Source of the DNA: Geothrix sp. SG200
Lineage (GTDB): Bacteria > Acidobacteriota > Holophagae > Holophagales > Holophagaceae
Assembly: GCF_022808935.1 (NCBI RefSeq)
Contig: NZ_JAKZFR010000001.1
Coordinates: forward strand, 372,001-436,000
DNA length: 64,000 nucleotides
Direction of reading: 5' to 3'
The notes under the pieces are model-generated. The model saw nothing but the letters and a program-made list of their open reading frames with translations, ran no database searches and had not been told where the DNA came from. Shown piece by piece: positions 24,316-51,414 of the stretch (position 1 is its first letter; each line of letters starts with the position of its first letter). The translations under genes and the position numbers were made by a program.

Positions 24316-24348
24316 TCACCCCGACTCGTGCCCGATTCCGTGGGTCGC
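24316..24348 (-). pseudogene. Most diverged displaced 3' end of the SprT-like gene
   Basis: 33 bp reading ATHGIGHESG-stop on the minus strand, the same 11-codon length as the true end (ITHGIGSEPE-stop at 24655-24623). It is farthest from the gene and most diverged. Confidence 0.65.
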
Positions 24349-24622
24349 GACCATGTGGGTCGCGAAGCAGGCTCCGGTGGAGCCTGCGGAGCGGGGCCCC
24401 ACAGGGAGCGAGTTTGACCAGGTGGGTCGGAGAGCAGGCTCCAGGGGAGCCTGCGGAGCGGGGCCCCACAAGGAGCGAATCATGCTGAACTCGCGCGCTG
24501 GACTAATCGGGCTCCGAGCCGATGCCGTGGGTCGCGACCATGTGGGTCGCGGAGCAGGCTCCGGGGGAGCCTGCAGAGCGGGGCCCCACAAGGAGCGAAT
24601 CATGCTGAACTCGCGCGCTGGG
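24349..24622. repeat. Hairpin-module repeats between rsmI and the SprT-like gene
   Basis: Three copies of a module (near 24367, 24434 and 24553) consist of GCAGGCTCC, 3 bases, GGAGCCTGC (9-bp stem), then GAGCGGGGCCCCACA and GGAGCGA. From about 24413 the block repeats with an exact 120-bp period, ending in the true gene end. The gap 24280-24622 contains no other gene; open frames across it are products of the repeat. Confidence 0.9.
24503..24535 (-). pseudogene. Second displaced 3' end of the SprT-like gene
   Basis: 33 bp reading ATHGIGSEPD-stop on the minus strand, in frame to TAG. It differs from the true end in three codons, one of them synonymous (TCG/TCA). It lies exactly 120 bp from the true end. 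Confidence 0.75.
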
Positions 24623-50642: not shown

Positions 50643-50663
50643 ACGCCCCTCAGCGTCCTCTGC

Positions 50664-50683
50664 CCTCCGAAGCCAATGGTCGC
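50664..50683 (+). repeat. Fragment of the tRNA-Arg anticodon arm
   Basis: 20 bp identical at 19 positions to tRNA-Arg bases 50782-50801 (anticodon loop, 3' stem and variable loop), 118 bp upstream of the same bases in the real gene. The match ends where the T-arm would begin. Confidence 0.6.
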
Positions 50684-50750
50684 GGGAACCCCGCCTCCCG
50701 AGCCTCAACCTTGAACAGAACCCCGATCGCCGCCATGATGGAAGGCCGCA

Positions 50751-50827
50751 GTACCCGTAGCTCAGTTGGATAGAGCGTTGGCCTCCGAAGCCAAAGGTCG
50801 CTGGTTCGAATCCAGTCGGGTGCACCA
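50751..50827 (+). tRNA. tRNA-Arg(CCG)
   Basis: 77 nt with an encoded CCA end. The acceptor stem GTACCCG/CGGGTGC has one G-T pair; D-arm, anticodon stem TTGGC/GCCAA with loop CTCCGAA (anticodon CCG at 50785-50787), and T-arm GCTGG-TTCGAAT-CCAGT. It reads CGG codons. The terminator stem begins inside the CCA. Pieces of the 3' half recur in a tandem array downstream. Confidence 0.96.
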
Positions 50828-50867
50828 ACAAAGCCAGGGGGGCCGCATGGCCCCCCTGGCTTTGTTG
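50826..50867 (+). terminator. 19-bp perfect terminator stem of tRNA-Arg
   Basis: Arms 50826-50844 and 50849-50867 pair completely around GCAT; the 3' arm ends CTTTGTTG. Its right half (GGCCGCATGGCCCCC, then CTTTGTTG) is repeated in each downstream unit. Confidence 0.85.
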
Positions 50868-50874
50868 ATGGTCT

Positions 50875-51136
50875 CTGGATTCGAACCAGCGAGTGGACCG
50901 CCCGAGACGCGCCTAGATGGCGCGTCGAAGCGGGCCGGCGGCGCGAAGCGGCGCGGTTCGAATCCCGACCGGGCCGCATGGCCCCCATGCCTTTGTTGCG
51001 GTTCCCTGGATTCGAACCAGCGAGTGGACCGCCCGAGACGCGCCTAGATGGCGCGTCGAAGCGGGCCGGCGGCGCGAAGCGGCGCGGTTCGAATCCCGAC
51101 CGGGCCGCATGGCCCCCCTGCCTTTGTTGCGGTTCC
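50875..51136. repeat. Two tandem 131-bp units derived from the tRNA-Arg 3' end
   Basis: Units 50875-51005 and 51006-51136 are almost identical. Each begins with an exact inverted copy of the tRNA T-arm (CTGGATTCGAACCAGCG). It then has a hairpin GACGCGCC-TAGAT-GGCGCGTC (first at 50906-50926), a GC-rich stretch, a direct T-arm/acceptor-like segment (50954-50978 and 51085-51109), and a half-copy of the tRNA terminator. No gene lies between the tRNA and 51415; open frames here are repeat artefacts. Confidence 0.92.
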
Positions 51137-51307
51137 CTGGATTCGAACCAGCGGGTTGGCCGCCGAAGGCGCTGCCTCCGTCTGACAGACAGGGCCAGCG
51201 CTGTCCTCCCGCTCCTCAGCTCCGCTCGTTGGCGGAGCCGGAGCCTCGGTGGCGCCGGCGCGGGCCAAGGCGGCGCAGCCGCACGGTTCGACTCCCGACC
51301 GGGCCGC
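51137..51307. repeat. Third, diverged unit of the tRNA-derived array
   Basis: Starts with the same inverted T-arm (51137-51153) and ends with a direct T-arm-like copy (51284-51307), but the interior is longer and different. It includes TGTCCTCCCGCTC followed by CGCTCGT, resembling the 137-bp coupling repeat near 4877-4900. Confidence 0.75.
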
Positions 51308-51360
51308 CTGCCCCCCGCCGGTGGGAAGTTCCTTCCTGTGAAAACATTTGTGGGGGCGCC

Positions 51361-51389
51361 TTGACTGGCCTCATTTTGCGAGGCACAAT
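51361..51389 (+). promoter_or_regulatory. Promoter of padR
   Basis: TTGACT and CACAAT separated by 17 bp. The -10 box covers the upstream in-frame ATG at 51388, which therefore cannot be the start codon if this promoter is used; GTG 51415 fits. Confidence 0.55.
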
Positions 51390-51414
51390 GATCCTGCCTA
51401 AACCGGAGGTCCCA

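Follow-up and report, generated by a model that had tools for sequence, protein, structure and literature searches.

The tRNA-Arg(CCG) gene of Geothrix sp. SG200 is followed by a tandem array of units that copy the T-arm of this tRNA in both orientations. The array lies in a stretch of 64,000 nucleotides, hereafter the window, and throughout the genus, units of the same design stand directly 3' of numerous further tRNA genes. The anatomy of these units is well supported; from it we infer their function and which of the two, RNA or DNA, is the acting form. Our tentative reading, to which we give slightly less than an even chance, is that the array consists of tRNA-templated trailer elements, comparable to the RtT of Escherichia coli and acting as a switch in cis. 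This reading is preferred because the unit ends track the sequence of the tRNA, the helices show compensatory changes, strand and position are constant, and a parallel exists in E. coli.

Layout of the array after tRNA-Arg(CCG)

All the features of the array lie on the + strand. The tRNA gene itself (50751-50827; ARAGORN, 69.4 bits with the Rfam tRNA model) carries positions 49-61 of its T-arm at 50800-50812, and its CCA end is overlapped by a terminator-type palindrome, an inverted repeat with 22-bp arms (50823-50870). An inverted T-arm of 18 nt, called antiT below, then occupies 50875-50892 and is the exact reverse complement of 50798-50815. It opens the first unit, whose predicted three-way junction (50877-50965) was delineated by covariance model, fold and covariation. 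The junction is closed by pairing of antiT with a direct T-arm piece, called T', and carries two hairpins, P2, with the apical part GACGCGCC-TAGAT-GGCGCGTC (50906-50926), and P3 (50938-50954), both assigned by fold and covariation. T' itself, GGTTCGAATCCCGACCGG, is a direct repeat at 50955-50972 and runs into a first repeat of the 3' half of the terminator (50971-50998, direct and inverted repeat). The second unit (51008-51096) has the same composition, with an 18-nt antiT at 51006-51023 that is again the exact reverse complement of 50798-50815, a T' at 51086-51103 and a second terminator half at 51102-51129. The third (51137-51295) has diverged: between an exact antiT of 17 nt (51137-51153, inverted repeat) and a T' reading GGTTCGACTCCCGACCGG (51285-51302), its middle is longer than that of units 1 and 2 and differs from it.

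Units 1 and 2 measure 131 bp each, follow one another at a spacing of 131 and are 95% identical. Direct and inverted T-arm copies take turns through the array at steps of about 65 bp, the T' motif of the window units, GGTTCGAATCC, lying about 65 nt after antiT. The direct piece GGTTCGAATCCCGACCGGG is found at 50955 and 51086 and, with one change, at 51285; it departs from tRNA-Arg(CCG) past position 62, and the window units are devoid of CCA. With R1, a covariance model built from an alignment of 38 units, unit 1 scores 82.4 bits (E 3.2e-16) and unit 2 also 82.4 bits, while unit 3 gives a weak partial match only (51234-51295, 14 bits). Against a 20-nt T-arm probe, the three antiT match at 18, 18 and 17 positions, the best of 1000 dinucleotide shuffles reaching 14. 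A chance origin is ruled out by these shuffles together with the counts at many loci given below.

This layout bears out much of an earlier note on the same DNA, which had described 131-bp units starting with an exact inverted T-arm, a diverged third unit, half of the tRNA terminator inside the units, and direct pieces that do not match tRNA-Arg(CCG) exactly. The same note had placed an anticodon-arm fragment upstream of the tRNA, and a match of 22/27 was indeed recovered at 50658-50684, 93 nt 5' of the tRNA (shuffle maximum 19 in 2000 shuffles). This fragment is part of the locus and not of the unit. Of 30 Arg-CCG loci, 7 have such a fragment 91-123 nt before the tRNA, the match reaching 26/27 at locus L234, and no Thr-CGT or Pro-CGG locus has a copy.

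Two further observations concern the same window. ARAGORN calls a tRNA-Asp(GTC) on the minus strand at 51128-51225, where the Rfam tRNA model gives no match; a second real tRNA is not supported here and the call is most likely an artefact, antiT being read as a minus-strand T-arm. False calls of this type may be present in other genomes that carry units. The unit model also matches, weakly (23 and 19 bits), a GC-rich tandem repeat with hairpins at 24343-24602 that has no tRNA near it.

Units at other tRNA genes and the origin of their ends

When the two window units were used as a query against 60 genomes, comprising this one and relatives, matches were obtained in 33, of which 32 belong to the same genus and one, weak, lies outside. 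Nearly every match inspected is on the same strand as a tRNA gene and directly 3' of it, with an antiT that fits that tRNA. The R1 model detects 1-13 copies per genome in 39 of 41 genomes of the genus; across 297 genomes of the phylum it finds copies in only 22, from three genera of a single family, the window's own. Almost all the R1 matches inspected are at tRNA genes, and the tRNAs concerned are Arg(CCG, TCT), Pro(CGG, GGG, TGG), Thr(CGT), Met(CAT), His(GTG), Asp(GTC) and Asn(GTT). One of the Thr tRNA units belongs to the cultured strain G. fermentans DSM 14018. The lack of similar units at other tRNA genes had been named in the earlier note as a point that would speak against its interpretation; many were found, in this genome and in the genus. 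No known Rfam family matched the unit.

The ends of the units are copies of the adjacent tRNA. AntiT is the reverse complement of tRNA positions from about 47 to 61, and T' copies the tRNA from about position 53, reaching CCA in young copies. Of 135 tRNA loci, many of them picked for carrying units, 94 have an antiT that matches tRNA positions 49-61 with a score of 11/13 or better, in most cases 45-62 nt past CCA, and none has one within the 140 nt upstream of the tRNA; these genomes are mutually related, and the locus counts are not numbers of independent events. Prevalence was estimated from the 78 loci fetched by tRNA sequence alone, after removal of one assembly palindrome: 40 of them contain an exact antiT stretch of at least 14 nt, and none has one upstream. 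The locus removed, L297, lies on a contig (G036:C257) whose perfect palindrome surrounds tRNA-Pro(CGG) and reaches past the tRNA, and was dropped as an assembly artefact.

In 92 of the 94 loci, no other tRNA type is matched by antiT as well as its own, the other two being ties, and the mean own-tRNA match of 12.5 is to be compared with a maximum of 11.0 over 2000 permutations. The T-loop of tRNA-Arg(CCG) varies between species (..GAAT.., ..GATT.., ..GACC..), and both antiT and T' track all three variants. The unit cores of genomes G014 and G024 are 89% alike, so these units probably share a common descent, as judged from sequence; their tRNA, antiT and T' differ in concert. Tracking extends to the antiT bases that face the 5' strand of the T-stem (CAGC/CTGC/CTCC), although the junction leaves these without a partner; this suggests that they pair with the tRNA. 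Where antiT deviates within positions 49-61, 12 of 17 changes are G.U-compatible. The proposal that the direct pieces come from another tRNA was rejected as the main reading and is probably wrong, T' tracking the adjacent T-loop and reproducing the exact adjacent 3' end in the young copies at loci L232, L278 and L384.

The main rival of the trailer-element reading, and a strong one although we regard it as rather unlikely, is a selfish repeat, non-autonomous and tied to tRNA genes. Such a repeat would land at the universal T-loop GTTCRA, duplicate the tRNA 3' end and stack in tandem, with the antiT:T' fold serving as a recombination site in single-stranded DNA or RNA and the ends copied from the target. 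Plain insertion fails, however, to explain an inverted copy that tracks the tRNA after T-loop changes. The constancy of position and strand also speaks against a selfish repeat, all tRNA-proximal units lying just past the terminator on the strand of the tRNA, and neither an enzyme, a circular form nor a clean empty-site pair was found; for L232 and L278, where an empty counterpart was sought, only partial flank matches came to light.

The young-looking units argue in its favor. At L232 (Arg), L278 (Thr) and L384 (Met, this genome), they end in an entire copy of the neighboring tRNA's 3' end, CCA included, and a second terminator follows the duplicated CCA; the first 33 nt of this second terminator at L232 are 91% identical to the terminator directly 3' of the tRNA at L233. 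Tandem growth and patchy presence, many loci of the same tRNA types being without a unit, point in the same direction. The latter also makes the unit dispensable, which counts against the trailer reading. So does the state of most arrays: T' is complete to CCA in 3 of the 94 loci, and elsewhere it is reduced to its T-loop part, without acceptor continuation, while distal units have often lost antiT.

The cores divide the evidence further. The nearest neighbors of 12 of 36 cores are at different tRNAs in different species, as expected of a mobile repeat, but for the remaining 24 another species has the nearest neighbor at the same tRNA, a pattern that looks vertical. The same kinds of ends are shared by at least three unrelated cores, namely the usual core, that of L384 unit 1 and that of L385, another point for a selfish repeat. 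Under the trailer-element reading, tandem duplication would enlarge the arrays and recombination would swap cores between tRNA loci. Two loci of this genome deserve description. At L384 (G000:C7 117900-119400), tRNA-Met is followed by two unit types in series, first one with a different core and then the usual one, with the terminator duplicated. At L385 (G000:C9 97700-99000), a partial tRNA-His 3' end precedes 174-bp tandem units with a different core, which repeat the full tRNA-His 3' end with CCA and resemble the tyrT plan of E. coli.

Relics of the attachment sites of integrated phages or integrative elements are a very improbable origin. In five genomes (G002, G017, G019, G060 and G063), partial 3' copies of tRNA-Thr(CGT) are found at a distance of about 7-16 kb from the intact gene, which suggests integrated elements, and this tRNA does resemble an integration site. 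The integrations at tRNA-Thr nevertheless keep a plain tRNA part only, and in G017 and G019 repeat units adjoin the displaced tRNA-Thr end; a unit beside such an end (L039, L051) is probably older than the integrations. We know of no attachment site in which a T-arm in inverted orientation is combined with a pair of covarying hairpins. The duplicated tRNA 3' end beside an intact tRNA is shared with the attL/attR sites of tRNA-targeting integrative elements, but the Geothrix units differ from these in their size of about 130 bp, their inverted T-arm and their covarying hairpins, and in the window no integrase or element body is present between successive tRNA-piece copies, which are only about 131 bp apart.

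Folding, covariation and a possible switch

A three-way junction in the middle of the unit, closed by antiT:T', is supported by the alignment of 38 units. In it, P1 consists of the 10 pairs of antiT with T', P2 is a hairpin with an inner mismatch and P3 has a three-base loop. The cells of the junction are paired in 93.6% of cases versus 84.1% in shuffles, and changes on both sides affect 15 pairs and 112 cells versus 10.4 and 31 in shuffles, none of 500 shuffles reaching the observed level; sliding the pairing partners abolishes the signal. Across relatives, 6 of the 8 pairs of P2 show double changes. The + strand gives the better fold in 31 of 36 cores, and the R1 model scores 82 bits on this strand versus 18 on the other. 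Folding of the unit, which had been proposed as a check, gave -57 and -55 kcal/mol for the window units, with z about -4. Of the proposals in the earlier note, small tRNA-linked elements and an RNA that could pair with the 3' half of the tRNA may each apply. The description of the array as stacked relics is made doubtful by helices with compensatory change and by an antiT that tracks its tRNA.

A second fold competes with the junction. From 50796 to 50900, a single long hairpin of -79.3 kcal/mol (z -10.9) is predicted, in which T-arm and antiT pair around the terminator. Since both folds are possible, antiT would have two competing partners. Under the trailer-element reading, the units would be transcribed by read-through from the tRNA promoter, and antiT in the transcript would pair either with the T-arm of the upstream tRNA or with T' of its own unit, the two being mutually exclusive. 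The first pairing would produce the long hairpin that includes the terminator and disable the tRNA; the second would form the junction and set the tRNA free. The unit would in this manner act as a cis switch on the 3' maturation of the tRNA or on the fate of its trailer, and would probably be excised as a small RNA like the RtT of E. coli. The units lie past strong terminator palindromes, so read-through is needed, which counts against the trailer reading.

The same near-palindrome, in which T-arm, terminator and antiT are arranged around the terminator, invites a neutral explanation, which we consider improbable: template switching during replication and recombination would copy the T-arm both ways, and palindrome correction with gene conversion would keep the copies alike. 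Spacing that by reading is at times exactly symmetric (L096, L111) and the recurrence of related arrangements in distant phyla fit such a by-product. So does the scarcity of G.U pairs, which would suit DNA palindromes and to that extent weighs against the trailer reading: with fixed structure, they number 3/717 in P2/P3 versus 18/180 in tRNA stems. This contrast vanishes with minimum-energy folds, and G.U scarcity was therefore discarded as proof of a DNA structure. Correction would, however, erase the conserved mismatches of P2/P3 (e.g. columns 68/82), and a by-product of this kind accounts poorly for a single core found genus-wide at many tRNAs and for the 0/135 loci with antiT on the upstream side.

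Parallels beyond the genus and their significance

The closest parallel is provided by the tyrT/tyrV repeats of E. coli, which are 178 bp long and include the RtT/RttR RNA and tpr; older work on them includes Egan and Landy 1978 and Bosl and Kersten 1991. As in Geothrix, tandem units directly follow the tRNA and contain its T-arm or 3' end. In E. coli K-12, an antiT (19/24; maximum 17 in 1000 shuffles) stands 55-58 nt past CCA in tyrT-tyrV, and the tyrT unit has hairpins and, as its last part, the 3' end of the tRNA with CCA. The annotated RNA RttR corresponds to one unit, and its predicted fold pairs the antiT strand with the tRNA 3' end of the unit. Both systems thus possess an inverted T-arm about 45-60 nt past CCA that is able to pair with a 3' T-arm piece. 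All four E. coli units are recognized by the Rfam RtT model (RF00391), with 133-138 bits, and it finds no match at E up to 5 in the window at 50700-51400, so the likeness is one of plan, the sequences appearing unrelated. The E. coli antiT also breaks the T-loop complement whereas that of the window is exact, the whole E. coli unit does not fold with unusual stability (z -1.1), and ten kinds of tRNA bear units in Geothrix versus one in E. coli. Two papers, both citing Bosl and Kersten 1991, describe RtT as an RNA set free from the tyrT transcript and connect it with the stringent response (PMC4986893; PMC2965389). A literature search returned no description of the arrangement outside tyrT.

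Other short repeats are less similar. REP/BIME sequences are likewise short, extragenic, GC-rich hairpin repeats, and one paper links sequences similar to RtT with BIMEs (PMC2965389), but they are scattered between ordinary genes whereas the Geothrix units are tied to tRNA genes and have ends templated by the adjacent tRNA. Transposon-type miniature elements have fixed, host-independent terminal inverted repeats; the ends of the Geothrix units vary with the host tRNA.

A wider survey was conducted by scanning genome contigs with one pattern and filtering out the matches that overlap tRNA genes. Among the matches listed, the succession of tRNA, antiT and T-arm occurs in haloarchaea, some Clostridia, some Pseudomonadota and others. 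In one haloarchaeal order, the pattern was found in 28 of 146 genomes versus 0 for the reversed pattern, the tRNA-gene filter being applied to part of these only; in the order of the clostridial example, 1 of 147 genomes has it, that of the query itself. Many matches outside Holophagaceae overlap tRNA genes and were rejected as ordinary tRNA clusters with palindromic T-arms, and among the matches listed none of the 33 on viral contigs passed the filter. The haloarchaeal and clostridial copies follow the order seen in Geothrix, with tRNA, hairpin, inverted T-arm, hairpins, then T-arm and 3' end; their cores differ from the Geothrix core, and the comparison is one of arrangement. In haloarchaea (L107, L137, L323-L341), inverted and direct T-arm copies stand at many tRNA types with a common motif, GGATTCGAACCCTGGAAGTCGCAG...

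The occurrence of the same design at many Geothrix tRNAs, together with the likeness to the E. coli tyrosine tRNA repeat, suggests that elements bound to tRNA genes in this way are a general kind, which has largely escaped notice. It is more doubtful whether these form one class of tRNA-templated trailer elements across domains, in which an anti-T-arm and a spare T-arm at the module ends would constitute a cis switch between disabled and mature tRNA, re-templated as the tRNA evolves, E. coli RtT being the sole case studied before.

Transfer RNA genes are among the best studied of all, and in a single genus a conserved folded element stands 3' of many of them, copies that tRNA at its ends in both orientations and generates false tRNA calls in annotation. 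A selfish element would amount to a very small parasite that fits its ends to each tRNA. A regulatory one would provide control in cis of individual tRNAs and would help to explain the tyrT repeats described in E. coli decades ago.
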